NCBI GenBank assembly: GCA_946894095.1
Contig: OX335660.1
Span: 1,307,001 to 1,371,000, forward strand
Direction: 5' to 3'
From: Incurvaria masculella
Taxonomy: Eukaryota; Arthropoda; Insecta; Lepidoptera; Incurvariidae
DNA length: 64,000 bases
Made by a program: the position numbers and the translations under genes
Notes under the pieces: model-generated
Database searches by the model: none
Told to the model about the DNA's origin: nothing
The model's input: the letters and a program-made list of their open reading frames with translations, nothing else
In this document: one piece after another, positions 40,537 through 62,703 of the stretch
Layout: the number at the start of each line of letters is the position of its first letter
Position numbering within the stretch: position 1 is the first letter of the stretch

Positions 40537-41197
40537 TTTCACGATGAGTGTGATGTCACTTGTTCAGGTACCAAAGAGAAATGATTTCACGTCCTACTGG
40601 AACCCTCCTTATATATCGTCTTGCTGTAATTAAAATCGAATAATAAAAACAATCTGAATCGCCGGTTTTCCCAGGGTTTAAATGCTGTTGCGTTCGTAAT
40701 TCCCACACGCTTCATATGGCACGTTGCCAACTCATGCTTCTACCGAAGGCTCAACCAACGTTTCAAAAAAACAATGGGGTTTTGAAACAACTGATTTTAT
40801 TTAGTTATTCAATGTCTGTGTGTTTGTTAAAGTTGTTTTGTTTTCCTAAGTACTAACGTCAGCAAAGGCACAAACCAGGCATATTTCTATTTATGGTAGT
40901 TTTTATTTGACTCATGGTAGTGTTTCATGTTGACTTACATTTTCCTGAAGTACTTTTAATAGTGTGATTCAAAGCAACAGGCTGACGCAGCTTTAATTGA
41001 CACGAACAATAGGAAGGATATCAATATTTGATAGGTATAGGAAAAAGTAGAAAAAAATAACTTGGAATAAACTTACATTTATTTAAATTCTTAAAAACTA
41101 GAGTGCATGAGAACAAACTTGAACCTACATTTTACTGACTAAATACAAAAAGTGTAACAGCCTCAAACTTATGATAGAATACAACCTGAAGATCACT

Positions 41198-42356: not shown

Positions 42357-42975
42357 CTAAAACGCGTTCACTATGGACTCAGAAAATAGCTTCATCATAT
42401 CATGGTCATCGCTTTGTTGAGCCACTTCATATGCCGTCAGTGCCTTCTCATTTCTTATGCTTACATCAACGCGCATCTCAAGTAACCATTCCACCAGCTC
42501 GTGGTTTCGCCGTGTGATCATTATGTGCAACACAGTGTCTCCGGTACCATCTTCCTGAGCATCTAAATCCGCTCCCATTTCAGCCATCTGTGCTATTAGC
42601 CTCTCAGCACGGACTCCAGTTAGATTCTTGGCGGCGCAATGCAGACAAGTTTCTCCGTTTCCGTTCTTCAGTAGCAGAAGGTGCTTCAGTTCATTTCTTT
42701 CTGTAGCGTTCCAAATTCGGTGCAAAATATCGTCGTAGTCTGACTGAGCAATGAGATAGAACATGGTGTTATTGTTCTCTTCCTTAACTTGGCCAAAGAT
42801 GTTGTTCCTTAATTTAAATGTAATTTTTTGTATAATTATAATTGTAATTTTCAATAATTTGTAAATTTAATGTAACGATTTTATTTTAATGTATTATAAC
42901 ATGTGCACGGCCCGCAAGGGTTATTTATGCTCAATAAATATAAATATAAATATAAATATGTCGTTGAATCTTTCC
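42357..42975 (-). pseudogene. Vankyrin-like ankyrin protein, unit D, start region split by an insertion
   Basis: The body (from IFGQVKEENNN to VNAF and stop, 42357-42798) is as in unit A, with His for Tyr in RRNHELVE. After the codons for DIFGQ the frame runs into the 159-bp insertion 42802-42960. The original start codon and first dozen codons lie on the other side (42961-43000). The open frame across the insertion has no native start. Confidence 0.82.
42802..42960 (+). mobile_element. 159-bp retroposon fragment in ankyrin unit D
   Basis: Absent from units A, B, C and E at the same site. Ends in repeats of AATATAA (42935-42957) after TTATTTATGCTCAATAAAT, the usual look of a LINE/SINE tail. 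ATG at 42799-42801 and at 42958-42960 is the apparent short target duplication. Confidence 0.8.
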
Positions 42976-43509
42976 AAAGCCATTTTCACGATGAGTGTGA
43001 TGTCACTTGTTCAGGTACCAAAGAGAAATGATTTCACGTCCTACTGGAACCCTCCTTATATATCGTCTTGCTGTAATTAAAATCGAATAATAAAAACAAT
43101 CTGAATCGCCGGTTTTCCCAGGGTTTAAATGCTGTTGCGTTCGTAATTCCCACACGCTTCATATGGCACGTTGCCAACTCATGCTTCTACCGACGGCTCA
43201 ACCAACGTTTCAAAAAAACAATGGGGTTTTGAAACAACTGATTTTATTTAGTTATTCAATGTCTGTGTGTTTGTTAAAGTTGTTTTGTTTTCCTAAGTAC
43301 TAACGTCAGCATAGCCACAAACCAGGCATATTTCTATTTATGGTAGTTTTTATTTGACTCATGGTAGTGATTCATGTTGACTTACATTTTCCTGAAGTAC
43401 TTTTAATAGTGTGATTCAAAGCAACAGGCTGACACAGCTTTCATTGACACGAACAATAGGAAGGATATCAATATTTGATAGGTATAGAAAAAAGTAGAAA
43501 AAAAGAACT

Positions 43510-43571
43510 ATGGTGTTATTGTTCTCTTCCTTAACTTGGCCAAAGATGTCGTTGAATCTTTCCAAAGCCAT
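43510..43571 (-). pseudogene. Ankyrin unit E, remnant of the first 20 codons
   Basis: Only the start (ATG at 43571, MALERFNDIFGQVKEENN) survives. The rest of the gene between 43510 and the 3' flank has been deleted, joining AAAAAAGAACT to the middle of the reading frame. Its upstream region with TATATAA remains. Confidence 0.85.
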
Positions 43572-43768
43572 TTTCGCGATGAGTGTGATGTCACTTGTTC
43601 AAGTACCAAAGAGAAATGATTTCACGTCCTACTGGAACCCTCCTTATATATCGTCTTGCTGTAATTAAAATCGAATAATAAAAACAATCTGAATCCCCGG
43701 TTTTCCCAGGGTTTAAATGCTGTTGCGTTCGTAATTCCCACACGCTTCATATGGCACGTTGCCAACTC

Positions 43769-44749
43769 AAATTACTAGAGACTGTTCATAACATAGTGGT
43801 ACAATGCGTCCTAACAAAAAATTTAATTTTCTGGTCGGCTAATGGCGTTTTTATTCACCTGTCTTATCTTCCTTAGGGGCTTTCGATACAAATACGCTCT
43901 TTTCCTTCTTAAATTCAGCAATGCACATGTCTAATAAACAAAACACCCCGCACTTATTAGTACCATCGCTGCAAGAGATGACGTCTTCTAGTGTTTCATT
44001 AGCTAAGAGTCATTGAATTTATATCAATAAGTGCGGAATTCTTTACTTAATTAATTGCCAAGAAAACATAGGTCACATGCTGAGATATTCGGCTGCCCCA
44101 TTTTAAAACACAGTAACTGCAAAATTTTATACCTGATTTTTTTTCGGTATTATTGCATCTTTCATTACTTTTAGGACTTAATTTCAAGTATTTTTTCTTC
44201 CAAATATTTTGATTGCAGTATTTTCTGTTCATAAATCAAGTTTTTTATCAATTTGGCGCGCAATTTTTTTTTTAATAAAGCAAATGAATAAAAATCTGAG
44301 AATTGTCAGTTACTGTGTTTTGACATGGGCAGCCGTATTGTATTGCTATAAAGTGATTAATCCCACGTGATATGATTGGAGGAATTATACAACTTAATAC
44401 CACATAAATAGTTTTATTCAAATCAATTATCAAGACTTCGATTATTTTTTTCACATAAGGTAATAAGAATAACCTTCTCCGAGTATAGGTCGTTTACTCA
44501 GAAACACTATCTCCTTTAACCAAAAACTTCTCCATCATATCATGGTTATTGACTGTAAAACAACAAGTTAGGAAATTCCCAGTAGTCCAGGGGTAGATAA
44601 ATGAAAATGTATCAAGTTTCACTGAAATGACGCACGAAATAACTTTTGGAGTAAATATTAATTGCCTAACTATAAAAAATAATTTCTTCTCTCTTGACTA
44701 CGAGATAAGAGTCATTTTTGTTTGATTAACTGCTCCAGGTGGGTAAGTT
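43769..44749 (-). other. AT-rich DNA with a short ankyrin remnant
   Basis: At 44497-44560 the minus strand encodes NNHDMMEKFLVKGDSVSE and a stop, resembling the DDHDMMKLFSES end of the array genes but more diverged. This is an older ankyrin copy reduced to its tail. Nothing else coding is seen. Confidence 0.4.
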
Positions 44750-45122: not shown

Positions 45123-45774
45123 TGTAAAGTTAATTATGTATTCAAAATATCAATGAATGTACGAATTTTTTCCTGTAATTGTTTCGAAATAAAACGATGC
45201 GCATGACACTCGTTCTATTTATGTTATGAATGTGATTGAGTTATGAAAGTGATTGAGTTATGAAAGTGATTGAGTTTTGTTGCCAATGTCTCAATTGTAG
45301 GTGTAAGTGATTTGCAATTGTAACGTAAATTAGTTGTAAAATAGCATGTAAGTATAAAATTTGCTTTTTCTTCAATTGATTCATGCATGTTCTTAAATTT
45401 TTCACTGTATACTCGTTATTTCGATATTAAAATTATTACTTTAACTAAGAGTTTTAATTATTACTTTCAAAAGCCCATCCATCAATGATTTAGGTTTTGG
45501 TAGAAATAATAAAAGGGTTACGAATTAAATTTTTAATTTTATTAAGCGTCTAAAAAAGGTTACTAACTCACTGACAATCACATTAATCTTAGGCTAACTT
45601 ATCTATGAATAACAACTATTCTAGAAAAAAATTGAGGCTACTGTTAATATAAATAAAAAAACTTTACATGAGATCCGTCACAAAATAAAGGCCAACATTT
45701 GTATTAACTTCCCGCTAAGAAAATCAATAATTTTCGAAAAATCTGAGCTCGGAGAGCTCAAAATAACACAAAAA
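45123..45774. other. AT-rich intergenic DNA, no gene seen
   Basis: Contains a short triple repeat of TTATGAAAGTGATTGAG (45228-45275). The part from about 45680 matches the 3' flank of PTP-A (28470-28600). Confidence 0.5.
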
Positions 45775-46757
45775 TTAAATTTTTGACCTCAAAGAGCTCA
45801 AAAACATCGCAACTAGCGACGAAATCGCATGCGTTTGATAATTGAATGCATGATGGATGGGCTTTAGGATCAACCGTTTTCCAAATTTTCCTAATTGATA
45901 TGACCCAAAGTAATTATATAAAACAAAGTAACAGATAATATAGTGGTTTAGTTCGTACATGTTTCCGAATCTGTTCTTTTTCAATTCTAACATAGTTGAG
46001 AACAAGTTAACTTTTCCTGTTTTCAAAAAATATCGCAAAAAGCCATCGACCGACCTGCCCCGTCGCTACACTGGATCACCATTGGACTTTTACAGCCTCC
46101 AGGAGCACGTTGCTTCACTGCATTTTCACTGTACAATCGTACAAACTGCACTAACTCAAGAAGGTCACCATCCGGTGGCAAGATATAAGACAGCTGCCAA
46201 TTTTTAAATATAAAGTGGTTGACGAACAATGGATCTTCGTCTTTGTGTGTTACAACAAGTTGGAAACCCGATGAAATCATCGGCTGAATTTTTAAAGTTT
46301 TGATTTCTAACTCTCCACTTTGGAACAACGTTCCTTCTGCTTGGTTCCAGTAAATACTGCCCTCTTCACTATCACTAGGCTCGTTTAGCATCACAATGAT
46401 TTCAGTTTTGTGTTCCCAAATCATTCTCCAAAACTTTTAGGTTGTTGTCTCGGAATACGGCGTTTCTGTTGCAATGTAGGCCTTTGGTTGCTGGAAGCCG
46501 TCGATGTAGGAGGCGTTGATGTAGTTAGTCACTCCTTCTTCTTCTGAAAGGACCACGCGGTTGTGGTCGAAGCACAGTTTTTCTCCATATCGTTTATCTT
46601 CGAGGTCTGCAGCAGATTTACAGGATTCGAATGTTCCTTCTAGTTTTATATTGATTATTTCTCTGTACTCTTCAAAAATATAGTCAATAGAGTCTTCGCT
46701 ATTAATTAATTTGATGAAAGCTTTACGGGTCAGAACTTTCGAATTAGTAGAACCCAT
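45775..46757 (-). pseudogene. Bracovirus-type PTP (PTP-E), paralogue of PTP-A with two breaks
   Basis: Starts at ATG 46757 (MGSTNSKVLTRKAF). NRVVL, NYINASYIDGFQQPKAYIAT and the P-loop IQCSDGAGRSMAF are present and match PTP-A closely. As there, the WPD loop is gone (FKNWQLSYILPPDG), so it was probably a pseudo-phosphatase before it broke. Breaks: an in-frame TAA at 46437-46439 where PTP-A has Cys, and a deletion of about 19 nt right after the P-loop (near 46030) that shifts the frame. The C-terminal helices (45775-46038) are intact in the other frame. Confidence 0.87.
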
Positions 46758-47230
46758 TTTCATTTCATGAAATGAAATGAAATGAAGCCAGCAAGTGTAG
46801 AATGCGGGGTCAATAGGTGTAGATTTCACTAAATCACAGTGTCAACTGAATGGTCACTAGCAGTGCATCGGTATTTAAAGGATCTACTTTTCCTTGTTAG
46901 GTATAATTAATCACAAGTGACGATTGGCTGACTAATTGATGATTTCAAGTTAAAGATTATATGTTACTACTTATATACGAATCTTTAGGTATATTATTTT
47001 GTTTACTTTGGGTTAGCAATAAACCTTTTTTACTGTTCAAGTTATTTGGAATTTTTAATTAACGATCAAGCGATAATTTTTCAGCACCCAATAGCAAAAA
47101 ATGTTTGATACATACAAGGAAGAAACTATTGAGGAAATTAGAGTTCTGAGTTGATGTACTCAAGGTGAGAGTCACATATTAATAGTCTTCATAATTTCCG
47201 TAAGCACGTGATACCAATTTTAGCAAACTA

Positions 47231-47422
47231 TTCGCTCCGAGGGCAACTAATACACTTACAGAAAATGTTAGTGTTTTAGCGTCTGTGTATATCCGTGAGA
47301 GATTATGAAGTTCCGACTTTTGTCGCAGATGTCGCGTCTTATGGGAAATTACATGGGTTTTCTGGGTGCGAAGTTATAAAATTTGTCACCCCGAGCGCTA
47401 GTCCTGTTGCCCTCGGAGCGAA
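47231..47422. mobile_element. 192-bp MITE with TA target duplication
   Basis: Ends TTCGCTCCGAGGGCAAC and GTTGCCCTCGGAGCGAA are perfect inverse copies of 17 bp, flanked by TA (47229-47230, 47423-47424). Absent from the duplicate at 34.1 kb. This indicates a Tc1/mariner-type non-autonomous element. Confidence 0.88.
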
Positions 47423-47702
47423 TAACAGGAAAAAGACTCGAATAACTTATAAATAGTTTAATCTCGTTTTCACGCCGCTGGCTGGAGGCAACCGAGATAA
47501 GACTTGGCCTGAGCCTGGCCCCGGCTTCTGGGAAACCCAAACCAAAATAACAATGTTACTGTGCGACAATTATTTTGTCGATTAGCAATCACATGTCCGG
47601 GGTTTCGAACGCTCAGGTTTACACGCAGTTTTGTAGTTGAAAACAAAATATTTTAAACTGTCGAGTTTTTTGGGTTTGGAATTTTAAGTTTATATATTGA
47701 AA

Positions 47703-47940
47703 TCCCGGGAAAAAATAAATTAGATCTACGGAGATCTACATGTTATAGATCTCCGAAGATCTAAATTTTGGCGCTAACTAAATCACATATTATTGTGTAA
47801 GATGTAAGTACATCTACGTAGATCAAAAACAATTTTATAGGTTATAAGGAGTTCGTGATATACCTAGATTAACAATCATCTAAGTAGATCTGAGTAGATC
47901 TACGTACATGTACTTAGATGTGAAAAAAATTTTCTCGGGA
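47703..47940. mobile_element. 238-bp MITE made of GATCTA words
   Basis: Ends TCCCGGGAAAAAAT and ATTTTCTCGGGA are inverse copies. The interior is rich in AGATCTAC/GTAGATCT motifs (at least eight). Absent from the corresponding site near 34400 in the partner copy, which proves it is an insertion. Confidence 0.8.
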
Positions 47941-48239
47941 TACTTCCTGTTCTACACTCAGGACAATTAGTATAGAAATCGCATAATTTTAACAGTAAGA
48001 TTTGCAATGTAGAAACTTTGTGGATACTTAGTAAAAATTTGCGCTGATGGACATGTATGTATATATATACATTAGTATTCATGTGTATATATGTTACGGT
48101 TAAAGCCCGATCTTGGTTAAAGTCCGATGTACACTGAGAGAAACGGTTGTAAGATATTTACTGAAATCCACGTAAAATTTTACACAACTGTTTAGCTGCT
48201 GAGGGGACTGCTAAACGCTTGGGTAATAATAGCTAAATG

Positions 48240-49200
48240 AGGAGTTATGTAAAAAAATATTGAACTATTTAGTAAAATAAATAGCTAAAGTAGTATGTAT
48301 TAATTTAATAAATGTTTTATAAAAATCTCCTGAAGTATTTAGTGCGAGATAGTTAAATCATTCGGTAGGATCTTTCTAAACTATTTGGTAAATATCTATT
48401 TAACTGGTGGTAGGATGATCCTAAACTGTTTTGTAAAAATGTACTCAACAGCTCGGTGCGAGATAGTTAAATAGTTCGGTAGGATGTTCCTAAACTGTTT
48501 TGTAAAAATCTACTCAACAGTTTGGTGCGAGATAGTTCAATAGTTCGGTAGGATGTTCCTAAACTGTTTTGTAAAAATCTACTCAACAGTTTGGTGTGGG
48601 ATAGAAAAATCATTCGGTAGGATGTTCCTAAACTGTTTTGTAAAAATCTACTCAACAGTTTGGTGCGAGATAGTTAAATAGTTCGGTAGGACGTTCCTAA
48701 ACTGTTTTGTAAAAATCTACTCTACAGTTTGGTGTGAGATAGAAAAATCATTCGGTAGGATGTTCCTAAACTGTTTTGTAAAAATCTACTCAACAGTTTG
48801 GTGCGAGATAGTTAAATAGTTCGGTAGGATGTTCCTAAACTGTTTTGTAAAAATCTACTCAACAGTTTGGTGTGAGATAGATAAATCATTCGGTAGGATG
48901 TTCCTAAACTGTTTTGTAAAAATCTACTCAACAGTTTGGTGTGAGATAGTTAAATAGTTCGGTAGGATGTTCCTAAATTGTTTTGTAAAAATCTACTCAA
49001 CAGTTTGGTGTGAGATAGATAAATCATTCGGTAGGATGTTCCTAAACTGTTTTGTAAAAATCTACTCAACAGTTTGGTGTGAGATAGTTAAATAGTTCGG
49101 TAGGATGTTCCTAAATTGTTTTGTAAAAATCTACTCAACAGTTTCGTGCGAGATAGTTAAATAGTTCGGTAGGATATTCCTAAATTGTTTTGTAAAAATG
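48240..49200. repeat. Left subterminal tandem array, about 70-bp unit
   Basis: About 13 copies of a unit containing GGTAGGATGTTCCTAAACTG, TTTTGTAAAAATCTACTCAACAG and TTTGGTGNGAGATAG. Successive units alternate between AGTTAAATAGTTCGG and AGA(A/T)AAATCATTCGG, giving a 140-bp higher-order period. The unit also occurs complemented in the right array. Possible transposase-binding region. The ORF across it is a repeat artefact. Confidence 0.88.
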
Positions 49201-49204
49201 TACT

Positions 49205-49612
49205 CAATCGTTTGATGTGATGTAGCTAAATCACTTTTGTAGGATGTACCTCTAATATTTTGTAAAAATCTACCACACTGCGCATTTGTATTTACTGAAG
49301 TTTTGCAAGTATGTTTATTTAAATTGTGAAAATCTATATGGCTGCTTTACCAAAATGTTATAAGTCAGGTTCAATAAGGCATATTACAATGTAGAATCTG
49401 AAATATTACCTTCCCGGGTAAAATGCCTTTTTTTACAATTGAACCTGACTCATACAATTTTGATATGGTATAGCCAACCAGATCTTCACAATTCAGTTAA
49501 ACATTCTTACATACTTCAATAAAATACAACTACACAATGAAGTAGATTTTTGACAAAACATAAGAGGTACATCCTACAAAGAGATTTATGTAGCTACCTG
49601 ACTAAGGGTCTC
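49205..49612. repeat. Large hairpin inside the giant element
   Basis: An imperfect palindrome centred near 49410: TAGGATGTACCTC near 49248 against GAGGTACATCCTA near 49564, GTAAAAATCTAC against GTAGATTTTTGAC, and GTCAGGTTCAATA against TTGAACCTGAC at the centre. It continues the left subterminal array inward. Confidence 0.75.
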
Positions 49613-49775
49613 TTCCACCATGTGCTGATTAGCTTAATCGGTACAGAACCATTAACTAAGGGGCCTTAATTACCATCTTGCAATCAATAGCAGTACAAAA
49701 TAAATTGGCAGTTTGGTAATAAAGGCCCTTTAACTGTCGATTAAGATAATCAGGACATAATCAGCACTGGGAGAA
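49612..49775. repeat. 164-bp foldback element
   Basis: GTGCTGATTAGCTTAATCG against CGATTAAGATAATCAGG and TAATCAGCAC, and AAGGGGCCTTAATTACCA against TGGTAATAAAGGCCCTTT. No coding capacity. Confidence 0.65.
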
Positions 49776-50408
49776 AACCAAGCTAATAAAATTGCTGCAA
49801 CAGAACACATCTACAGCGATTAAGTTGCTCTTATTTCACAGTTACAGGTAACAGGTAGTTACAGGTACAGGTACATAATAATGAAAGTTGATAAATGAAA
49901 AGAAGCATTTATTCAAACAATTTCTTATTATGTAGGTATTATAAAAATGTATTTTCCGAGTGAAACAATGATAATCTGAAACTAACGTAGAAGTAAATGA
50001 TGGACCCTTCATTAAAGTAAAACACAAAAAATTAAATAACAGCATTACAACATATGGATATAATATCGACCCAATTTTGAAAAATATTTAATTAAAGTAT
50101 CTTATGTACTAATACTAAATCCTAGCTATTAACGTAAAGTGGGATTAATTATTTAATTAAAACATTCATATAACCTAGTATTCAATAACCTAATCACATA
50201 GAGTATGTTCTCTCCGATAATGAAAAACACGCATGAGGAAACCTGTAACTGTATGTAACAGTCAGGGCAGTAAATATACACTCAATAATTTGAAGTTAAT
50301 ATTACAAGTTAAGGTGATCCAATCCATCTGACTTGGCCAGTTTATTTTTTCATTATGGAAAATTTTCCGCATAAAGAAATTTAAAACTTTTAAACAACTG
50401 TTATTTAT
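49776..50408. other. AT-rich DNA, no gene seen
   Basis: Includes an ACAGGTA-rich microsatellite (49845-49875). Nothing coding. Part of the interior of the giant element. Confidence 0.45.
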
Positions 50409-50670
50409 ACCGGGTGTTAGCTGCGGTTTGGTCCAAACGTTAACCAGGTGTTGCTGGCCCTATTTGAAGTAAAAAGGTAGATAACATTTTGTTGTATGGC
50501 TTAAAAAAAAATCGTTCACCCCATACATTTTTGTAAATACCTACACACAAAATGTATGAGGACGACGAAAAATTTTTAAGCCGTACAACAAAATGTTATC
50601 TACCTTTTTTACTCCAAATAGGCCCAGGAACACCTGGTTAACGTTTGGACCAAACCTCCGCTAACAGCTA
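50409..50670. mobile_element. Foldback MITE, copy 1 (ACCAGGTGTT family)
   Basis: Inverted halves: GGTTTGGTCCAAACGTTAACC at the left against GGTTAACGTTTGGACCAAACC at the right; AAAAAGGTAGATAACATTTTG against its inverse; a CCCCATACATTTTTGTAAAT centre. A near-identical copy is at 56133-56390. Confidence 0.85.
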
Positions 50671-50694
50671 GTGTAAATATCTTATACCAGGTGT

Positions 50695-50940
50695 TAACGG
50701 GGCTATAGTCCAAACTTTAACTAGTTATTCCTTGGCATGTTTGGAGCAAAAAAGGTAAGTAACATTTTGCTCTCCAAATTTAAAAATCCGTCCGCCCCAT
50801 ACATTTTTGTAAATACCTACACACAAAATGTATGGGGATGACAAGTTTTTTTAAGCTCTACAAAAAAATGTTATCTACCTTTTTTACTCCAAATAAGCCC
50901 AGGGACACCTGGTTAATGTTTGGATCATTTTTATTTTGAT
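50695..50940. mobile_element. Foldback MITE, copy 2, diverged
   Basis: Same plan as copy 1 (CCCCATACATTTTTGTAAAT centre, ATGTTATCTACCTTTTTTAC arm, GGACACCTGGTTAATGTTTGG end), with more substitutions. It lies directly after copy 1. Confidence 0.75.
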
Positions 50941-50969
50941 CATTTATATTAAAAACCCCCATTAACACC

Positions 50970-51110
50970 CTGGTTAAACATTAACCAGGTATTCCTGGAC
51001 CTATTTAGAGCAAAAAAGGTGGATAACATTTAATTTCTAATAAAAATAACCATACATTACGGGTGTAGGTATTACACATTTGTATGTGGAGGACGTTTTT
51101 TTTAAGTCGT
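50970..51110. mobile_element. Foldback MITE, partial copy 3
   Basis: GGTTAAACATTAACCAGGTATTCC and GCAAAAAAGGTGGATAACATTT match one arm of the family; the rest is truncated. It ends 55 bp from the stop codon of the transposase-like gene. Confidence 0.6.
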
Positions 51111-51163
51111 AGGGCTCAAATAAACTGTACTGGTTGGCTGGATAGGATCGCCCTAAGGAGTCT

Positions 51164-53599
51164 TTATAAATGTGACCTTAATGTAATGTATCTATTTCCA
51201 TTTGGTGCTACAGAGATATGACAAGGCACGTGGCTTACCAAACAGTCGTAGAACATATAAATGATTTCTTCATTTGGGGGAACTTCTACTAAGTAACAAT
51301 GAAAGTGTTCGTCAAATTCTACAGTATTTAACAAAGTACATTCGAAAATAATCCTTTCTACGCTATATATGTAAACATTTTTGATTGACATGAATCTTAT
51401 CTCTCCTAAGTCATGAACATTTTCAACAAGTATTGTTTGACATTTATATTCTGTACCCTTAATTTTTACCCATGCGACACGCTCCAACGATTCATCGGAC
51501 ATGAGGTTAAGTGATGTTACAATTTCTTTGCATTTCTCTAAGGAAATATTTTTGATGGGACCTACGTTAATTATTTTACTCAAATGTCCCTTCAGAAAAA
51601 TTTCATTGAGCTGCATCTGATGTTTTATGGCAAGTGTGGCCGTAATATTACGTCTATTAAATGAAGCTCGAGCTGAAATTTTAGATATCCTGTGTTTGGC
51701 TTCGAATCGCATAGCCCAAAAGTTAACTAGAGGTCCAAATTTAACCATAAATGATGGATAGTGAACGAGAAAGTGAAATTTCGGCTTAAGTTTCTGGTTA
51801 GTTAAAGTCAAATACATCTCGTTAAGTTCTCCGATCAAGCATTTTAGTAATTCAATAGCAGCATTATTAATTCTTGGACACATCACAATATCAATTATAT
51901 TTATCAGTGTTGTATACAAACACCAATATTGTTCATTTAATGGAACAAAATCGCCAATAAGTAAACCAAAATAACGAACCAACGTTAACATTTCGGAGGC
52001 CGATAAGCGTACATTACCATTAGAAATATGGTCCATACTCAAGAGGCATGGTTTGCTGCTGCTATCGGGACCATAATCGAAGCAAGCGATTCTATCATTT
52101 AATAATTGAATTGAAAAATATTTCAAACCTGTTACATATTTTGATATTAAAAAGCTCATGACATATTTAGCGACACCTTCGAGTATATCGTGCATTACAT
52201 CGACTCCTACTTGTTCGAATAAACTGAATTCTTTTACATTGAGCCACACACACTTCTCTTTTACACCAGTACTAGACGAGTCACTTCTTATCAACTGCAG
52301 TTCATAATCTACTACATTACGGAATAAATCTGAATTCTCATAACATTGCGTTTTAAGTGTTTCTTTAGATACGTTACAAATACGGCAAGGAAAATTTGAA
52401 GAAAATGACTCATTAAATCCGATAATAGAGTGGATGCCAAGATTATCTCCAACTATAAGAGCAAGTTGAAAGTATAGTGTACCTTTAAAACAGGTGGTAT
52501 TTATTACTACACCATTTTTTGACAAAAAGTTAAATTCTTCAATAAGCGGCTGAAAAATAACTCCGTTACCAAATGCTACTCTATCGGAAGAATGGAACAA
52601 CAAAGCAAGGAAAATATTACTCAAGGAGGAAGCTCTGTGTGGTGGAATGCAGCCGACTGAAACGTAAACAGCTCCCAATTTATGTATACCCGAATGACTT
52701 CCTAATACATTTCCACTTTCATAATCATCAAAAAACATGAACAGGGGAAAGACCAATTTAGCGTCTGTGTTTTTCATTCGATTAACCCAAAAACTTCCTT
52801 GAATAAAATTTTCAATTAAACCTTTACTGGACATTTCAGACAGGAAATTTATGTAAGTTAAAGTTTCTTCCATAACGTCATCAAGAGAAAAAAAAATTTT
52901 CAATACACTACGAAGGGGAATAAACTGTTCGGTGCAATTAATCGGCTTGACATTCAGTACTCCGTGTTGTCTGATCGCAGACCTCCTCTGGCCTATCGTT
53001 ATTTGATTTGGCGGTATGTAGGTACCTTTGGATAAGAAATGTTTAAAACGCAAGTGTTCTGTTCGAAAACAATCTAACGGTGTTCGCACAGTTGACAAAA
53101 GCTTCTCCCTCAATGTCGTTACGTCTTGACCTTTCTGTATCGTAGTTAAAATTTCATCAAAAACAATTTCAACATTTCTAGTTAAACTTTCAGACATGTA
53201 TTTACTCATACCATCAACAACAGACTGAACTGCATTTCTAGGCAATAATGGATTCGCATACAAAGATGATAAAAATATATCCAATGAATTAGACACTGCA
53301 ACCGAATGTGAAGTTTTTGGCATAACTTCAAGAGAAATTGAATCAGAAGATTGCTCTGGGATTTGATAAGATGTACCAGGTAGGTCATCGCTAACGATAT
53401 TAGGATTACAATCGTCTCGACAAGCATGCTGCCTTTTTAAATGTTTACGAAATGTGTTAATTAAGTGAAATGACCTCAAGCACCCATCGTCAACGCAATG
53501 GTATGTTGAAAAATTGTGGCTACTGTGAAAATAATCAAAGTGTTTGAATAAGTCCGGTGTGTTGTTAGCAACTTTACGACAAAGAAAACAGGTTGGCAT
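51164..53599 (-). CDS. C2H2-zinc-finger transposase-like protein of the giant element
   Basis: 811 aa without a break from the ATG at 53599 (MPTCFLCRKVANN). Two C2H2-like fingers open the protein: C-x2-C with HFDYFH, then CVDDGCLRSFHLINTFRKHL and KRQH. The middle has IGFNESFSSNFPCRICNVSK, a zinc-ribbon-like Cys pair, and VGVDVMHDILEGVAKYV, a D-x-M-H-D-x-x-E-G motif typical of animal CACTA/EnSpm- or KDZ-type transposases. Near the end is LKPKFHFLVHYPSFM and FWAMRFEAKHRISK, another hallmark. I infer an RNase H-fold transposase; precise catalytic residues are likely the Asp and Glu in these motifs. It starts one base after the SAM gene stop. An upstream TTG/no-ATG extension was rejected. Its expression may depend on the SAM gene transcript. 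Confidence 0.78.
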   Translation of the reverse strand: MPTCFLCRKVANNTPDLFKHFDYFHSSHNFSTYHCVDDGCLRSFHLINTFRKHLKRQHACRDDCNPNIVSDDLPGTSYQIPEQSSDSISLEVMPKTSHSVAVSNSLDIFLSSLYANPLLPRNAVQSVVDGMSKYMSESLTRNVEIVFDEILTTIQKGQDVTTLREKLLSTVRTPLDCFRTEHLRFKHFLSKGTYIPPNQITIGQRRSAIRQHGVLNVKPINCTEQFIPLRSVLKIFFSLDDVMEETLTYINFLSEMSSKGLIENFIQGSFWVNRMKNTDAKLVFPLFMFFDDYESGNVLGSHSGIHKLGAVYVSVGCIPPHRASSLSNIFLALLFHSSDRVAFGNGVIFQPLIEEFNFLSKNGVVINTTCFKGTLYFQLALIVGDNLGIHSIIGFNESFSSNFPCRICNVSKETLKTQCYENSDLFRNVVDYELQLIRSDSSSTGVKEKCVWLNVKEFSLFEQVGVDVMHDILEGVAKYVMSFLISKYVTGLKYFSIQLLNDRIACFDYGPDSSSKPCLLSMDHISNGNVRLSASEMLTLVRYFGLLIGDFVPLNEQYWCLYTTLINIIDIVMCPRINNAAIELLKCLIGELNEMYLTLTNQKLKPKFHFLVHYPSFMVKFGPLVNFWAMRFEAKHRISKISARASFNRRNITATLAIKHQMQLNEIFLKGHLSKIINVGPIKNISLEKCKEIVTSLNLMSDESLERVAWVKIKGTEYKCQTILVENVHDLGEIRFMSIKNVYIYSVERIIFECTLLNTVEFDEHFHCYLVEVPPNEEIIYMFYDCLVSHVPCHISVAPNGNRYITLRSHL

Positions 53600-53600
53600 C

Positions 53601-56600
53601 TTATTGCAGAGCAATGTTCAGGTCAGTCATAAGTGAATTTGCTGCTGTGTATACTCTGTCGTATTTAGTTTTAATCTTATATATTGCTTTTTGAATAAAA
53701 TTCCAGATATGGGCACTTTCACTGGGGAACTCTGCATTTAATGCAAAGATTATCTTAAAGCAAGCATCGACAGCGTGGATGGTTGAGGTGGAACTGTAGC
53801 GTACGTCCTTTGTTGGTGAGTATGTAACATTGTTGATGACAATGTACCTAGTGTGAATAGTGTTGAGGGTGTCACCAATTATAATGATGTACGGCTGCAC
53901 ACAAAGTCCCAAAGATGCGAATTTCTCTCTCCTTAATGTGAGAGAAGCCTCCAGATCAGCAGCCGTTGGGATGTGAGTTATGAAGCTTTCAAGCGATTCT
54001 ATCTTTGATGGTCTCCACAGCTTCTTGATTTTCGCCTTGCGGACTGTGCTGATGTTCATCAGAAAGGCGAGTGACATGAAGGCGACAGTGTCAGCGGCAT
54101 CATCGTTTACAATATCTGTAAATATTAAAACATATTTACTAAAACAAAATCAAGGGAATGACTGATTGCTACTTTTTCCGAACTGGTACATAGATACACC
54201 ACATTCACAGGCTTCGCACTACATCCGATGACACTATAAATGCACTTGTATTGTTTTTGTGGTTTTTTATATTGTCTAACATTCCACCTTGTTAGTAAGG
54301 AATTGGATGACTGTGAATCCGAACCACGACTAACATCTCATGTCACCCATCCAGAACCCGACAATGCACAGTATTGCTTAACCTCGAAGATCGAACGCCG
54401 ATGTGTCGCCCCAGTGGTGCCTGAGGCTGACAAGAGAAAGTATGTATAAAAGAAGTTGATTCTTTATCAAAACAAGGTGGTTAATGCTTGAGTGAGAGTT
54501 TGACGAACTTAATTACTTAATTATCAAAGCCAACGGGCGGACTTTGGTGGGAGCTGCCTGATAATTTAGTTCCAGGCTCGGTATAGCTTTGACAATTCCT
54601 CAAGCTTGGATTTCACTTTAAAAGATAGTCGAAGCGGCAATCAATTTTTTCCGTGCATTCCATCCAGGGTGCCCATTCCGGTATGAGTGAGTTCGAGTTT
54701 GAGAGTGAGTTAACCTAAAAATAGCTAGAGAAAATATATTTTTTTAAACAACGTAACTGTTATTTTACCGTCCAACATATTCATGTGAACAAACTAAAAT
54801 GATGTTAAAAAAGTGCGGTACATGAACTATTTATAAAAGTGAGTTGATATTTAGCGCCAAACTTGAACTCACTTTGTACCAGAATGGGCACCCAGTTCAA
54901 TTTAGGCATGTAATTCAAGGAAAGACCTGACACCTAGTTCACATGGCTATGATAAGCTTAATATTTTGACAGTGGGTGTGGTATTAGAAAACATGTAATG
55001 TTAAAAAAACGCTTGGATCACGTTTTATGCAGTTTTATGAAACTGACATGAAGGCTAACTACCACTGTCATGATATCAGCCCATAACACCACAGGGGATC
55101 TAGGTGCCATGCGAGAACCTTTCTTATAATACACGGCTACATTGAACAGGATGGAAAACACAAAATTTTCATTGCCGCTTCGACCATCATTATATTCAAT
55201 GTGGTGGTACCAACCCGAGCGGAAGTGAATACCACCGTACCACCTTGAGAGTAAGGAAGGGGACCAACAATTTAACATGGAATCCGAACCACCCCTGTGT
55301 GACCGTGTGGGTCTGGCACGTAAAAAGAATACAAGTGGGCCCACTGCATTTCTTCCCATGCATGTCGTAAGAGGCGACTAAGGGATTCTTCGTTCGTGGC
55401 TCGGAATCCACGTTAAACAGTAGTTCCCCTTCCTTACCAACTAGGTGGTAGGGTTATTCCCGCCCGGGTCGGTACCACCGCATTGGATAAACGATTGGTC
55501 AAAGCGGCAATGAAAATAGTATGTTTTCCATCCAGTTCAATGTAGCCGCGTAATAAAGGAAGGTCCTGGGATGGCACCTAGTCTTCATGAGGTGTTATGG
55601 GCTGATATCATGATGGTGGGTGTGTTATTAGCCATCATGTCGGGTTTCCATAAAAAAAAACCCCAGCCTCTTTCCAACGGACGAACATCACCCATCCAAT
55701 GCTTAACTTCGAAGTGTCGCGCCAGTACGCTGAATCGAAAACTGTTATTCGTAGAACTCCAATATTTTTTTAAAACCTATCCAATGATACCCTATACAAT
55801 ATAATAAAAAAAAATATGTGTATGGGAGGTACAGTAGGGGTCAGACCAAAGTATCCACTTCCGGTTGAGAGTCAAAATGAACGATGCGATAATTGAAACT
55901 TCCTATGCATTTTTGTAGTATTTTATACACATTTGAATAACAGACACTTCCAAAAATGGTTTAATGTATAGTCAATATTAATAGTGTTGCCAGAAGTCAA
56001 CGTATTTTGTCTGTTCATTTTTAACTTGACCCGATTTCCGGTACTTTCGTCAGACCCCTACTGTACACTAAATAAATTGTTTTTCCAAATTTTATATCAC
56101 AGTTTTGTCGGCATGATTAATGTATATGTATACGGGTGTTAGCGGAGGTTTGGTCCAAACGTTAACCAGGTGTTCCTGAGCCTATTTGGAGTAAAAAAGG
56201 TAAATAACATTTTGTTGTACGGCTTAAAAAAAATTCGTTCGCCCCATACATTTTTGTAAATACCTACATATAAAATGTATGGGGAGGAAGAAAAATTTTT
56301 AAGCCGTACAAGAAAATGTTATCTACCTTTTTTACTCCAAATAGGCTCAGGAACACCTGGTTAACGTTTGGACCAAACCTCCGCTATCACATAACTATGC
56401 AAAATTACAGCTTTCTACTACCAAGAGTTTCCGAGATAAATGTCGGACAGACGGACTGACACGACAGACATGGCTAAACTATAAAGGTTGCTTGTTCACT
56501 ACGGAACCCTAAAAATGAACATATTTTCAAATGAATGAAAAGAAAATCCCACTAACCTTCATCCAGGTTTGACAATATTTTCTGGAGGGCTGGATCATTG

Positions 56601-58808
56601 CGTTTCCTTGCAAGTTCGAGGATTTGGTCACGGTAGAGAGGCCAGATGTTGAAAAGTTTGTCCTGCTCTTGCGGGTACAGACTGGAGAAGTCCTCCAGCA
56701 ACTGTTAAGAAATATGAAAATTAACTATTTTCAACATTCACAATTTATCAATGAGTAAAAAGTAAAGTTTAAGTTCGAAAGCCCATAGGCGTCGAGTAAC
56801 TCATTGAGGGCCTGGCGCACAGCATGTCAGGTTTTATATAAAAAAAAAGTTATAACCTGACATAACTTCAGTAATTGGGAAACAATATGGTATTCTATAA
56901 ATTAGGAATGTTTTCTCACTTATTTATAAATATGGTAACTAAAAAACCTATCTAATCAAAGCAACAAGTGGGAAACACCTTATGAAAAGACAACATAAAT
57001 ATTATACATAATATCTATACACATACCAAATGCAGACCACCGGATTGTCGCAGTGGCCTAAATTCATTGAAGTAGCCTTCTATAGTCGTCCCCGACCTTA
57101 CTAATTTCTCGAGGCGCACTTTTTGCGTACTCGTCCAATACAATTGGGCAGTCGTCCACGGGTCGCAAGAATTTCGGAGCCACAATAGACAATCTTCTTG
57201 ACCCTCCTCTGCTTCGACCGAAGGACAAGGCAACTTGTTTGCCGCCTCCTCAATTCTTGACGATGGTGAACCAGGAGCACTGTAGCATGAAGAGCTTGTT
57301 GAAACAGTTCGTTTTCTAGGAATTATGAGCCCCGACTTACTATGCTCTCTGCGTCTTTGCCTGTATGTATCAAGCAGTTTTCCTTTGGCCGCAATTTTTA
57401 TAGCTGGACTAAGATTCATGTATGGGGAGAAGTAGACCGGGGCACTTTCTTTCACAAATACTTTGGTTATTTCGTATGCGAGTTGATAAAATCGCGTGGT
57501 TGATATTTTTGTGTCTGGGTCGCTCTTCAACTCGTTTGAGATGATTATGTTGCACAGTTTCCTTCTTCCGCTGTTATCGAGGAGTCCAACGTTTTGATAT
57601 TTAATCAAAAGCGCCCTTCCTTCATTCGTGCTGGACAGATAGTTTTGGAGAGTAACTTCGGCTTCTGAACCTTCGGATTGAGAGTTTAGAGCCTTCAGTT
57701 GCGTGCTGTTTAGGAGATTTGTTAACGAATAATCATTAGAGCTCGTGGAAGCATCCATAAAGCTGAGATCCTGAAAAAAAAAAGTATTTAAGAAAGGGGT
57801 AAGGGGGTTCTGTCGCAAAAAAGGGTCCGTGTCTGTCGTGAGACGCGGGAGAAAAACAAATTAAAAACTTTTGAAAAATAACATAATTTGAAAATATTAT
57901 AAAGATGTGCTACAAATTATGACGATTCTTAATTAGTGAACAGTAATGGTCCAATACGAAAATTTTAAAATTCATTTTGTTTAAAAGAACCAGTTGGGTA
58001 TCGATATTATTATGTAATAACGCCGTCAATACGAATATGTTTTTTTTTTATTAGAGAAATAAAAATTTGTGGACGTGCAAAAAGTTGTCCAAATATTTTA
58101 AAAAAAAAAAAGATACATTATAATATAGTATTTATCCTGTTCGTTTAAAAAAAAAATCAAACTTACGCTCGGTACGGTGATGATGTTCGGTGAATCCTTG
58201 TTGGTAACGGCTTTCAAAACTTGTAGCTGATTTGAGAGAAGTACTCGATGGCCAACCGAAGTGATGAGTTCCTTTATTTGGTCATCTGATATTAACAGCA
58301 GAACATCTAAAGTGATATTTTGCTCTGAAACAAAAGAAACAAATGTTTACAACAAGCTAGTTCGTGGGGAATTTGGAGAATTGTTTTTGTTGCAACATAG
58401 GGGAGCCAATAATAAATATTTCTTTCATATCAATGAGAGACGCCTGTACACAGCATTGGGACGAATAAAATGGCTGCAAAGAAAAAAAAAGGAGGGTACA
58501 ACACATGCATTCCGTCACGGCGTACCTACATGCAGTTTTCAGCGCCGCGTCATCGCCACTTTTGCCACGCCGTTTCTGTATACTTATAAGCGGGTTAAAC
58601 TTTGGCCGCGCACGGTTACAATTAAAAAACACGTGTGAACATGCCAATACGTCGTCATGGGTGACGGGAGCCTCGGACATGCGAGGTGCGAGTTATGCCA
58701 CGATGGACAGATTTACGATAGATACTTGGAGCCCTTACCTTTAAATTTCTGTATATACATCTCTAAGCCCCACGCTACAAGGTGATCCTCGACGGATTGA
58801 TCGGCCAT
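53601..58808 (-). CDS. SAM-domain protein of the giant element, five exons
   Basis: Exons 58739-58808, 58167-58324, 57027-57770, 56557-56701 and 53601-54115, all with GT-AG borders and matching phases, give 1,632 nt and 543 aa. Exons 1-2 encode an N-terminal SAM-like domain (DHLVAWGLEMYIQKF, then ISDDQIKELI, VGHRVLLSNQLQVL). Exon 3 has NEGRALLIKYQNVGLLDNSG, KISTTRFYQLAYEI and a serine-rich linker, a pattern I know from insect 'sterile alpha motif domain-containing 3-like' proteins. Exon 5 carries SFITHIPTAADLEASLTLRR and ends in ALQ. SAM domains mediate protein or RNA binding. The role is unknown; its tandem position suggests a partner or regulator of the transposase. Introns hold MITEs and retroposons (the last, 2.4 kb, especially). 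Confidence 0.75.
54600..55000 (+). mobile_element. Short retroposon copy split by a MITE
   Basis: Left piece to 54667 (AGTCGAAGCGGCAATCAAT, CATTCCATCCAG) and right piece from 54892 (AGTTCAATTTAGGC, AAGGAAAGACCTG, GGGTGTGGTATTAG) match consecutive parts of the 55305-55660 copy. The MITE 54669-54891 lies between. It is within the last intron of the SAM gene. Confidence 0.7.
54669..54891. mobile_element. 223-bp MITE inside a retroposon
   Basis: Ends GTGCCCATTCCGGTA and TACCAGAATGGGCAC are inverse with one mismatch; GAGTTCGAGTTTGAGAGTGAG and its rough inverse lie inside. CCAG is repeated at both flanks. It interrupts the retroposon copy cleanly. Confidence 0.82.
55048..55290 (-). mobile_element. 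Short retroposon copy, minus orientation
   Basis: The complement reads GGATTCCATG, CCTTCCTTAC, GGTGGTA, GAAGCGGCAATGAAAATTTT, TTTTCCATCCTGTTCAATG and GGCACCTAGATCCCCTG, in the order of the plus-strand copy that follows it at 55305. The pair therefore forms an inverted repeat. Confidence 0.75.
55305..55660 (+). mobile_element. Short retroposon copy, most complete
   Basis: Starts GTGGGCCCACTGCATTTCTT, then TGTCGTAAGAGGCGACTAAG, TAGGTGGTAGGGTTATTCCC and GCGGCAATGAAAATAGTATG, ending in an A tail at 55651-55661. It resembles retroposons common in Lepidoptera. It is a non-coding insertion in the last SAM-gene intron. Confidence 0.78.
56133..56390. mobile_element. Foldback MITE, copy 4 (ACCAGGTGTT family)
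   Basis: Near-identical to 50409-50670, with GGTTTGGTCCAAACGTTAACC and its inverse at the ends. Intronic in the SAM gene. Two such close copies in the element show recent activity. Confidence 0.87.
56380..56515 (-). mobile_element. Lepidopteran-type LINE tail fragment (GGTTCCGTAG family)
   Basis: The complement starts TAGGGTTCCGTAGTGAACAA and continues CTATAGTTTAGCCATGTCTG-like text, GTCAGTCCGTCTGTCCGAC, and AAGCTGTAATTTTGCATAG. I know this pattern from butterfly and moth genomes. Confidence 0.68.
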
Positions 58809-59190
58809 TCTTCTCTCACGGCAAAGTGAAGCACACGAACACGATGAAACAGAACTGACCTTGCTGCTTGGCTAGTGTTAGAGTGTGTGGTCGTGTGGTG
58901 GTTCTCCTTCTCTAGCGTCGCGTCCATCGCGTCAGTAAGTTACGCCACAGATTATGCTTGCATCACGTATTCGTCATCATCACGACGGCGCGGTGCAGAC
59001 GGCAATGTTGCCAGTAGAAATTATTCCCATGAATTGTCTATTAATATAAGCCGCCGCCGCCTTCGTCCATGAACTGTTGATAAATTATAATAATTATTCC
59101 CACTTTACGTTATCTAACTTATTTTGATTTATTGATTATTATATTTTGATTTGATGATTTGATGAATGATTATTTTTTGAAAAACTATAG
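58740..59190 (-). promoter_or_regulatory. 5' region of the SAM gene
   Basis: Upstream of the ATG at 58808. The first 250 bp is GC-richer than the surroundings (for example ACGACGGCGCGGTGC), like a CpG-type promoter; there is no TATA box at a standard distance. Promoter assignment is by position. Confidence 0.35.
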
Positions 59191-59191
59191 T

Positions 59192-59236
59192 GGCGGAGGC
59201 GCGTTGACGGCCGCATACCTCTAACGCGCCTCCGCC
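59192..59236. repeat. GC-rich perfect hairpin upstream of the SAM gene
   Basis: GGCGGAGGCGCGTT at 59192-59205 and its exact inverse at 59223-59236, separated by 17 nt. In AT-rich DNA, about 385 bp upstream of the SAM start codon. Confidence 0.85.
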
Positions 59237-59299
59237 GTGTTCACTACGCCTCACGTTCACTCCTCTGATTCTAAAAAAATAATGAAATATTTTTTGAAA

Positions 59300-59560
59300 T
59301 TACGTAGGATATAAAGAGCTGATATAGTAAAAATCACCCAAACATTAAGCTAAATTTGCTAAATGTTATGTATATCTCTACTAAGTATTTGGTAAAAAAT
59401 TACTAAGTAAAAAATACTTTGGTAAAATTCTACTAAACATTTAGCTAAACGTCCCGTGCATTTAGTAAAAATACTGTTCGTTTAAATATTACATAATGTT
59501 TTTGTAAAACTTGTAAAAAGTTCAGCTATCAATAGCTAAACTGTAACGGCCGAGTCAGCC
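59300..59560. repeat. Inner edge of right subterminal region
   Basis: Dispersed TAGTAAAAAT, CATTAAGCTAAAT and CTACTAAGTA words like those of the terminal arrays but without a regular period. Confidence 0.5.
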
Positions 59561-59825
59561 CTAGGTTGTTTGTTAAGTATTGTTAACTTTTTTCGTACCA
59601 TTACCCTTAACATGTAGGTACGTCGCTTCTTTCAACGAATATAATTTGAATGTAATAAAGATGTATGTAAATAATTATCTGTACTTCATACTTAAATGTC
59701 TCTGCAAAATTATTTGCAATTTGTGAAGATGAACCGTCCATAAACCGCATTATGTTGTCTGTCATTATGTTGATTTTTTATCGTTAGGTACCTAAGATTT
59801 CATTTATTATATGCCAGTTTTAATA

Positions 59826-59960
59826 AAAGTGGGCCCACTGCATTTCTTCTCGTGCATGTCGTAAGAGGCGACCAAGGAATTCTTCGTTTGTGGTTCGGAA
59901 TCCACGTTAAACAGTAGGTCGTCTTCCTTACTAACTAGGTGGTAGGGTTATTCCCGCCCA
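59826..59960 (+). mobile_element. Short retroposon fragment
   Basis: AGTGGGCCCACTGCATTTCT, GTCGTAAGAGGCGACCAAGG and TAGGTGGTAGGGTTATTCCC match the first 140 bp of the 55305 copy; truncated at its 3' side. Confidence 0.78.
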
Positions 59961-60600
59961 GCGGCCCTATTGCCGATCAGCGTTACCGCTATTAGCGATC
60001 GAAATTTGACGTTTATCCGTCCATTGCGATCGCCGATGCTCGGTTTGCGACAGAATTTCTACCGCTACTGTTCTAACCGCATTGACGTTAAAAATAGGTC
60101 AACACCCATACATTTCACAGTGATGTTAACAATCAATTGCGATTGCGTATCTTTTGGCTGTAAATTTTAACGGATGGTTATTGCTATCTCGGTATTGGTC
60201 AATGTTTTGAGATTTTTCAGTGATTTCAGGGTTTTGAGGTCTTAGCAACTCGATCGCTCTCCCTTCATCGATTGTCCTAAACTGTAATTTTACAACTAAA
60301 AAACACGCAAACATAAGACTGAACTAGCCTACAATTCGCACAGAGTATAGTTTATACGGACAACTCAATTCCACTCAGGGGGAAATCTAGTCATGAAATT
60401 CACTTTCCTTTATGACCCACTTTAACCTTCCATCCACTATACAGGACAAAACAAAATGTTGCCTGCTTTTTTCTCTATTCCGGATGAAAGGTGAGAATGG
60501 GTCACAATCAACAGTAAGCATATGTATGCTTATATTTGCTGTGCCCTAGCAGGGCACTATAGTGGATGACAGCTACTCGAGTGAAAGTTTCTCGCTCTGC
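59961..60600. other. No gene seen
   Basis: A moderately GC-rich stretch (59965-60130) and AT-rich DNA; the ORFs at 59970-60314 overlap on both strands and show no motif. Confidence 0.4.
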
Positions 60601-60605
60601 GCGGT

Positions 60606-60950
60606 GATGCACCCAAACTTTAGTAGTACGGTATGAAACTGTTCAGTTAATTCAACCTAACTTCCGTTTCTACTGAACAGTTTGGGTGATATACCCAAAC
60701 TTTAGTAGTTCGGTATGAAACTGTTCAGCTAATTCAACCAAACTGTTTAGTTGATTTCTACTGAGCAGATCGGGTGATGCACCCAAACTTTAGTAGTACG
60801 GTATGAATCTGTTCAGTTAATTCAAGCTAACTTCAGTTTCTACTGAACAGTTTGGGTGATATACCCAAACTTTAGTAGTTCGGTATGAAACTGTTCAGCT
60901 AATTCAACCAAACTGTTTCTTTGATTTCTACATAGCAGAAACATATTCTA
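60606..60950. repeat. Right subterminal array, 170-bp unit, two copies
   Basis: ATGCACCCAAACTTTAGTAG begins at 60606 and again near 60776, with CTGAACAGTTTGGGTGATAT and TCGGTATGAAACTGTTCAGC within each. It shares the AACAGTTTGG word with the left array. Confidence 0.8.
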
Positions 60951-62035
60951 CCATACTCTACAGGACCATGTTTAGCTACTACCCAGCTAAACAGTTATGT
61001 AAAAATTTAATTGTACAAATCAGTAATTATCTACAAATTCCCTCTTTGTCAATAGTAAAAATCTAATAAACAGATATCTCCAGAACAGTTAAGTGAAAAT
61101 CTACAAAACACTTCAGTATCATTCGAACTTATGCTACTGAACTCTGTTAAGCTACTAATAGCTAATAGTTTAGCTATCCCAGCTGAATAGTTATGTAAAA
61201 AAATATTTGGTAAATTTGATTGTACAGTTCAGTAATTATCTACAAATTTCCTCTTTGACAATAGTAAAAATCTACTAAACAGAAAACTCCAGAACAGTTA
61301 AGTGAAAATCTACAAAACATTTCAGTATTATCCTACCATATTCTACTGAACCCTGTTTAGCTACTAATAGCTAATAGTTTATCTATCCCAGCTGAATAGT
61401 TATGTAAAAAATTATTTGGTAAATATTGATTGTACAGTTCAGTAATTATCTACAAATTTTCTCTTTGACAATAGTAAAAATCTACTAAACAGAAAACTCC
61501 AGAACAGTTAAGTGAAAATCTACAAAACACTTCAGTATTATCCTACCATATTCTACTGAACCCTGTTTAGCTACTAATAGCTAATAGTTTAGCTATCCCA
61601 GCTGAATAGTTATGTAAAAAATTATTTGGTAAATATTGATTGTACAGTTCAGTAATTATCTACAAATTTTCTCTTTGACAATAGTAAAAATCTACTAAAC
61701 AGAAAACTCCAGAACAGTTAAGTGAAAATCTACAAAACACTTCAGTATTATCCTACCATATTCTACTGAACTCTGTTTAGCTACTAATAGCTAATAGTTT
61801 AGCTATCCCAGCTGAATAGTTATGTAAAAAATTATTTGGTAAATATTGATTGTACAGTTCAGTAATTATCTACAAATTTTCTCTTTGACAATAGTAAAAA
61901 TCTACTAAACAGAAAACTCCAGAACAGTTAAGTGAAAATCTACAAAACACTTCAGTATTATCCTACCATATTCTACTGAACTCTGTTTAGCTACTTATAG
62001 CTAATAGGTTAGCTATCCCAGCTGAACAGTTATGT
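60930..62035. repeat. Right subterminal array, 210-bp unit, about five copies
   Basis: CTGTTTAGCTACTAATAGC recurs at about 61142, 61351, 61561, 61771 and 61981. Each unit has AGTTATGTAAAAAATTATTT, TAGTAAAAATCTACTAAACAG and TATTATCCTACCATATTCTA. The last three units are almost identical, so the array expanded recently. Confidence 0.9.
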
Positions 62036-62397
62036 AAAAAAGCATTTATTAAATTCGTTTAGTAGAATACAAGCAAACATTTTGTACTTATTAACTGAAA
62101 ACATATTTTACTAAATTTAATTAGCTACAAGTACCCAAAATATTTTGTTCATAAAGCTAAACTATAGGTGGCAACTACTAAAGTTTAGTAAAATGAAAAA
62201 TAGCTAAACTATTTAGTAAAATAATTTTTTTCAGTGTAATTTGCACGTTTCGGACTTTGACCAAGAAATGCTCTGTTTTTGGTTTAAGTCCGAAAATGCA
62301 AATTGGTGCTCGAAGTCGTAGCCTTGTCGCTCGGAGCCGATTTTACGTTCATCAAATTCGTCCCCCAATACTCGAGTGTTTCGCAGATCCTTTGTAA

Positions 62398-62703
62398 GAT
62401 GACTCTTGATGAAACTGCCAAATTGTTGATCTCGGCCAAGGAATACTCCGACCCTTCCGCCATCGACGATTACCTCGCAGATTTCAAAACTATTTTCGAA
62501 GCCCGCCAGCGTCCACAAATCGGTCCCAAAGCGTGGCGGCAAATTGCGCTCTGCTTCAACAATGTCGGGTTCGCGTGCTACACTCTCTTTGTGGGTGCGT
62601 GCCACCAAAGTCCAAAATACAAACACGATTTGGAGAAATGGTGCAAACTCTACTCGGAAATGGCGGCTGATCTTTTGGAAGACATCACCCTTGCGGGCTG
62701 ATT
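62398..62703 (+). CDS. Unidentified small protein
   Basis: About 100 aa from ATG at 62398 (MTLDETAKLLISAKEYSDPS), with IDDYLADFKTIFEARQRPQI, CFNNVGFACYTLFVGACHQ and a helical end (MAADLLEDITLAG). Composition is that of a real folded alpha-helical protein and it is not repeat-derived. A longer frame reaches back to 62303, almost to the giant element's end, so a 5' exon may have been lost or lie elsewhere. I do not recognise it. Confidence 0.45.

Follow-up and report, generated by a model that had tools for sequence, protein, structure and literature searches.

A 64-kb stretch of contig OX335660.1 (64,000 nucleotides, referred to here as the window, with positions counted from its first letter) contains at 48132-62236 a 14.1-kb element whose two genes, one encoding a protein with a sterile alpha motif (SAM) domain and the other a transposase, lie on the minus strand, which makes the right end of the element its 5′ end. 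The boundaries are taken from the terminal bases and the dinucleotides next to them, which were read directly, and from words found in the flanks. CACTGA starts at 48132 and TCAGTG stops at 62236, and each is adjoined by a TA (48130-48131 on the left, 62237-62238 on the right) that represents a putative target-site duplication. The terminal inverted repeats, CACTGAGAGAAA at 48132-48143 on the plus strand and CACTGAAAAAAA at 62225-62236 in the minus-strand reading, are identical at 10 of their first 12 bases and match little further inward. Inverted CACTGA/TCAGTG ends with TA on either side had been proposed by an earlier, sequence-only reading of this DNA, and direct reading of 48130-62238 bears them out. 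In this one copy, the combination of CACTGA..TCAGTG termini and TA agrees with the mostly CA..TG ends and the duplications of 2-5 bp described for the CMCT clade (PMC12730594; this and the other papers cited below are drawn on for the portions of their text that were available). A larger element, bounded by outer inverted words, was considered and rejected: direct copies adjoin those words too, and there is no duplication farther out.

Inside the two ends, repeat detection found tandem arrays. The left subterminal array (48409-49273) consists of 12.5 copies of a 69-bp unit with 91% matches, and the right end has two arrays, one of 2.0 copies of a 170-bp unit (60603-60939, 95%) and one of 5.0 copies of a 210-bp unit (61003-62041, 96%). 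We compared the words of the stretch 48132-49300 with those of 60600-62236, using 200 dinucleotide shuffles as a control. Direct word sharing between the two stretches is clear: 20 direct 12-mers are common to both (shuffles: mean 0.7, maximum 5), as are 39 direct 10-mers (mean 7.4, maximum 18), and the common words that had been noted in these arrays are thereby confirmed. Three words were also scanned across the window at match thresholds of 17/22 and 15/22. One of them, TGTAAAAATCTACTCAACAGTT, has at the stricter threshold (at least 17/22) 13 matches on the left, 12 on the right, one at 59.3-59.6 kb and none in the rest of the window; at 15/22 the corresponding counts are 26, 25 and 4, with 12 elsewhere. 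The internal 17/22 match belongs to a possible small and weak cluster of similar words at 59301-59600, approximately 0.5 kb upstream of the SAM start codon. This cluster has 14 direct 10-mers in common with the right subterminal stretch (shuffle maximum 10), and both its 12-mers shared with that stretch (2; maximum 4) and its sharing with the left one (6; maximum 8) are within the shuffles. To give it a regulatory role would be speculation.

The sequences on either side of the element resemble each other. The left flank has two GGTTAAAGTCCGA-like words (48098-48127, plus strand) and the right flank two further ones, one inverted and one direct (62250-62293). A scan for GGTTAAAGTCCGA with up to two mismatches returned four matches in the window, at 48098, 48115, 62250 (inverted) and 62281, all four no more than about 60 bp from a junction, two to the left of the 14.1 kb and two to its right. 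When the flanks are brought together at a single TA, 16 of 17 bases pair with a score of 14; among 396 random pairings of 60-bp pieces the best score was 12. Both flanks appear to have once been one sequence, and the flank words favour one 14.1-kb insertion. This supports, from one copy, the part of the earlier proposal in which the whole 14.1 kb would have been inserted as a unit.

Several other features adjoin the element. An imperfect palindrome at 62238-62304 lies directly next to the right end. On the left, a duplicated block (45679-48027, corresponding to 28447-34496 in pieces of 76-96% identity) ends 104 bp before the element, and the other copy of this block lacks a stretch near 47704-47939 that contains self-inverted pieces. 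The 28.4-34.5 kb copy was rejected as a paralogous empty site on account of the same 104 bp, over which it has no match up to the junction. To the right of the element, a 100-amino-acid frame (62399-62701) has its ATG 163 bp from the end, and the element may lie in the upstream region of this frame; the piece 62402-62701 (99 amino acids) had no Pfam match at 0.01 and no NCBIfam match at 1.

The transposase gene (51164-53599, minus strand) is an unbroken, intronless open reading frame of 811 amino acids. C2H2-like fingers, one recognised by pattern and a second by eye, are located at the N-terminus of the protein, and D291/D292, D385, C405-x2-C408, H470, H609-x3-H613 and E633 follow in this order. 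The transposase carries in these positions the eight residues (D, D, E, two C and three H) that are conserved in CMC-type DDE transposases and are described as such for the CMCT clade (PMC12730594); H470 as the third conserved H is our own assignment, made from a figure legend of that paper. In 2000 residue shuffles, a strict regular expression for this chain of residues found no match and a looser one found 27; the two expressions were composed after inspection of the transposase sequence. Judged by its residues and its ends, the transposase is CMC-type and not a member of the TRC group.

Searches of sequence collections with the transposase returned chance or sub-threshold matches. No NCBIfam family was found up to E = 1, the best E value against PDB sequences was 0.72, and a Pfam match to FOXP-CC was sub-threshold (E = 3.3). 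A pattern search gave 3 matches in viral_contigs and 12 in genome_contigs, none of them a relative, and motif patterns derived from the transposase matched 1, 0 and 1 stretches in viral_contigs and 70 in genome_contigs. A tblastn comparison of the transposase with 72 matched loci (stretches of up to 8 kb) had a best E of 0.9, with chance matches. One matched locus (L001) looks by eye like a phage from its frames.

The SAM gene precedes the transposase gene on the same strand and is predicted to have five exons with GT-AG introns: exon 1 at 58739-58808, with the ATG at 58808; exon 2 at 58167-58324, which by prediction and Pfam contains the remainder of the SAM domain; exon 3 at 57027-57770; exon 4 at 56557-56701; and exon 5 at 53601-54115, with the stop codon TAA at 53601-53603. 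The predicted product is an open frame of 543 amino acids with no internal stop. Its residues 4-61 match SAM_1 (E = 1.1e-7, above the curated cut-off), and because this match spans the junction of exons 1 and 2, that splice is supported. Pfam also returned SAM_2 and a sub-threshold match to FANCI_S1-cap (E = 0.15); no NCBIfam family was found up to E = 1 and no PDB sequence match at 0.01. Proteins of such a layout are presumably frequent in the genomes of animals, where they are called “sterile alpha motif domain-containing protein 3-like”, which we take as a lead only.

These gene models sharpen what the sequence-only reading had described. The SAM_1 match establishes its SAM-domain gene, and the ends, the TA, the subterminal arrays and the eight CMC-type residues support its assignment of the element as a CMC-like transposon. 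Of its two long unbroken co-directional genes, the transposase gene is indeed unbroken; the SAM gene consists of five predicted exons and not of one frame.

The two genes are nearly contiguous: the SAM stop is followed by one G and then by the transposase start, in the order TAA-G-ATG. This contiguity means that a transcript with the SAM stop would also have the transposase start, except where cleavage and polyadenylation take place inside the transposase frame, in which AATAAA or ATTAAA words occur at 52505, 52103 and 51941. The arrangement is best read as a single transcription unit that comprises both genes. Its transcription would begin within the right end, and the transcript, with the five SAM exons spliced together, would continue directly into the intronless transposase.

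The enzyme could be produced from this unit by three routes. In the first, translation would stop and restart at TAA-G-ATG. The silkworm retrotransposon SART1 uses stop-restart translation at an overlapping stop and start and needs a downstream structure for it (PMC5972666), whereas the stop and start here are one base apart. In the second, splicing to the AG directly before the transposase ATG would join the transposase in frame to exon 2 or exon 3, and in the third, a separate promoter within intron 4 or exon 5 would be used. The second route, in which alternative splicing makes a SAM-transposase fusion, is a variant of the best explanation that differs on this one step, and we regard it as possible and as the less probable form. 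Exons 2 and 3 both have phase-0 donors, the exon sums of 228 and 972 being divisible by three, and AATAAG directly precedes the transposase ATG and so provides an acceptor AG; moreover, Spm and SmTRC1 produce their proteins through alternative splicing (PMC1636069). However, chance could readily put two of the four donors in this phase, and to the eye the tract before this AG has no strong polypyrimidine run.

We read the whole as a complete, apparently intact two-gene CMC-type cut-and-paste DNA transposon with one transcription unit and with the SAM protein in a TnpA-like role, and put the probability of this reading at roughly 0.7. The element is probably of animal origin, as its introns and the genes around it suggest. 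In the maize En/Spm system, TnpA binds the subterminal repeats and the transposase frames come first, and plant CACTA elements make a 3-bp duplication. In the present element, by contrast, the gene for the second protein, here a SAM protein, precedes that for the transposase, the ends are CACTGA and the duplication is TA. The likeness to En/Spm lies in two element-encoded proteins, in tandem frames within one transcription unit and in CACTA-type ends: the products of tnpA and tnpD are both essential for Spm transposition, and the messages for Spm TnpD and of SmTRC1 clone B4 contain two frames in tandem (PMC1636069). Because the SAM protein is encoded inside the ends and one base before the transposase ATG, and because En/Spm provides a precedent, a built-in accessory role of the SAM protein, as a second partner of the transposase, is plausible.

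The transposition mechanism that we envisage for the two-gene transposon builds on this partnership. The transposase, a DDE enzyme with fingers at its N-terminus, would make its cuts at the CACTGA ends, insert the element at TA and leave a TA duplication. Oligomerisation is a general property of SAM domains, and the SAM protein, in the part that TnpA plays in maize En/Spm, may oligomerise through its SAM domain and keep the enzyme bound at the subterminal arrays. Both proteins would then contact DNA, and the element would be mobile as a unit.

Known elements share parts of this architecture. The CACTA-related TRC elements of animals (SmTRC1 and those of Aedes and Tribolium) likewise have 2-bp direct repeats at their ends and a large transposase frame, and SmTRC1 also has a second protein, whose role is unproved (PMC1636069). 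They differ in that TRC ends start with CCC and those described here with CACTGA, in motifs I and A printed for SmTRC1, and in that the available portions of the TRC description mention no SAM protein. In the same portions, the authors report that the second proteins of SmTRC1 showed no similarity to those from other elements, whether of animals or of fungi (PMC1636069). CAC..GTG ends with 2-bp duplications are found in the Ciona CACTA element ENS1_Cis and in two miniature elements known from polydnaviruses and wasps, CMC-NA_1 and CMC-NA_2 (PMC6004678), a likeness that we draw from their descriptions only; CMC-NA_1 and CMC-NA_2 differ in being non-autonomous, with no autonomous partner found according to the available text of that report. 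ESTA, an EnSpm-like group of fungi, belongs to the CMCT clade and makes a TA duplication but comprises three fungal families that carry TET/JBP genes (PMC12730594), and is again compared by description only. The size of the element, which the sequence-only reading had called unusually large, is not exceptional, because Rim CACTA elements average 14.1 kb (PMC1636069). We found no report of a SAM-bearing CMC element in the open-access literature, a search that did not cover Repbase and in part judged papers by their titles and the start of their abstracts.

A number of observations weigh against our interpretation. The element is known here from one copy and there is no empty site in the window, where the similarity of the left flank to the paralogous block at 28.4-34.5 kb breaks off at 48027. 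The end hexamers with TA are by themselves weak evidence, as TACACTGA occurs at two places in the 64 kb and TCAGTGTA at three. Inverted word sharing between the subterminal stretches is borderline, with six inverted 12-mers (shuffles: mean 0.5, maximum 7) and 16 inverted 10-mers (mean 6.4, maximum 14) in common, and at 17/22 or better the second scanned word (11 matches left, one right and one outside the element) and the third (13 left, one right) are almost left-only. Four GGTTAAAGTCCGA matches were reached in 7 of 100 window shuffles, so it is their placement and not their number that is informative. The right flank is palindromic on its own (62238-62304, 76%), which makes the flank pairing less independent and partly not peculiar to the insertion.

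The proteins add to these points. No CMC family is above the Pfam cut-off for the transposase, the match to Transposase_21 (E = 0.14) having 11.8 bits where 28.6 are required. In their printed form, motifs I and A of SmTRC1 gave no regular-expression match in the transposase, and motif A is present only in a relaxed form, VDVMHDILEG. The single-sequence fold of the transposase has a mean predicted local distance difference test score (pLDDT) of 32 and is uninformative. Relatives of the transposase were absent from the prokaryote and virus collections scanned, where absence says little, and SAM exon 3, the one part of the SAM protein that was scanned there, is without relatives in viral_contigs. 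The role of the SAM protein in transposition would follow from its position and from the analogy with En/Spm.

Besides its genes and arrays, the element contains internal repeats. Palindromic repeats at 50402-51031, with a second copy at 56133-56390 (together approximately 0.9 kb), are found within the window only inside the element and may be the element's own; an RNA family search returned ten weak matches, all below gathering scores and all within these palindromic repeats. Other repeats, detected by self-comparison of the window at 55101-55291 and 55397-55659, are about 80% identical to 9719-9989 outside the element, and with further pieces at 54620-54667 and 59891-59959 amount to about 0.6 kb. 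As a repeat that is also present outside lies inside, the element has taken in other DNA. This would fit a one-gene CMC transposon that captured a host SAM gene as a passenger with no role in transposition, as would the presence of introns in the SAM gene and their absence from the transposase gene. We consider such a capture unlikely: the reading frame of the SAM gene stays open through all five exons and stops a single base short of the transposase ATG, which is not expected of random capture. It is very improbable that the ends are fortuitous and that resident host SAM and transposase genes, a domesticated pair, lie between chance CACTGA words and arrays that are unrelated satellites: while the end hexamers with TA are not rare, a single copy is known and two of the three array words are almost left-only at the strict threshold, the subterminal stretches exceed shuffles in direct word sharing, TGTAAAAATCTACTCAACAGTT is found 13 and 12 times within them and at 17/22 never outside the element, and the GGTTAAAGTCCGA-like flank words occur only at the two junctions.

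The rest of the window contains other gene-like frames and repeats. Protein-tyrosine-phosphatase-like frames, recognised by eye at 28599-29555, 32465-37434 and 46023-46841, are partly broken or fragmentary, and Pfam confirmed Y_phosphatase for both frames searched (28599-29555 and 46023-46424). A tandem array at 38474-43841, with a unit of about 1,144 bp, comprises four copies of 97-100% identity and a piece at 84% and holds ankyrin-repeat frames, confirmed by Pfam for 41198-41707. We take the phosphatase and ankyrin frames to recall bracovirus virulence families, so the window may be a wasp proviral locus or part of an insect genome with such insertions. Frames related to other transposons are also present: a THAP9/P-element-type transposase frame at 5098-7692 is 864 amino acids from stop to stop and has six Pfam families above cut-off, and pogo/Tigger-type and Harbinger-type transposase-like frames were recognised by eye at 464-2206 and 24665-25510, respectively.

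The En/Spm elements of plants need two element-encoded proteins. For the second of these in CACTA-type elements of animals, the present element, which appears intact and encodes a recognisable SAM protein directly before its transposase, provides a concrete candidate. More tentatively, and as a conjecture to which we attach limited confidence, the element could represent a lineage of animal CMC transposons in which the SAM protein is an obligate partner, co-encoded on the same mRNA and expressed with the transposase by stop-restart translation or as a splice fusion, and in which the SAM protein polymerises into a scaffold that gathers the enzyme onto the long subterminal arrays. In insects, members of such a lineage could be the autonomous partner of the CMC miniature elements of wasps and polydnaviruses. 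The element supplies a testable translation junction, together with end sequences for finding short non-autonomous relatives.

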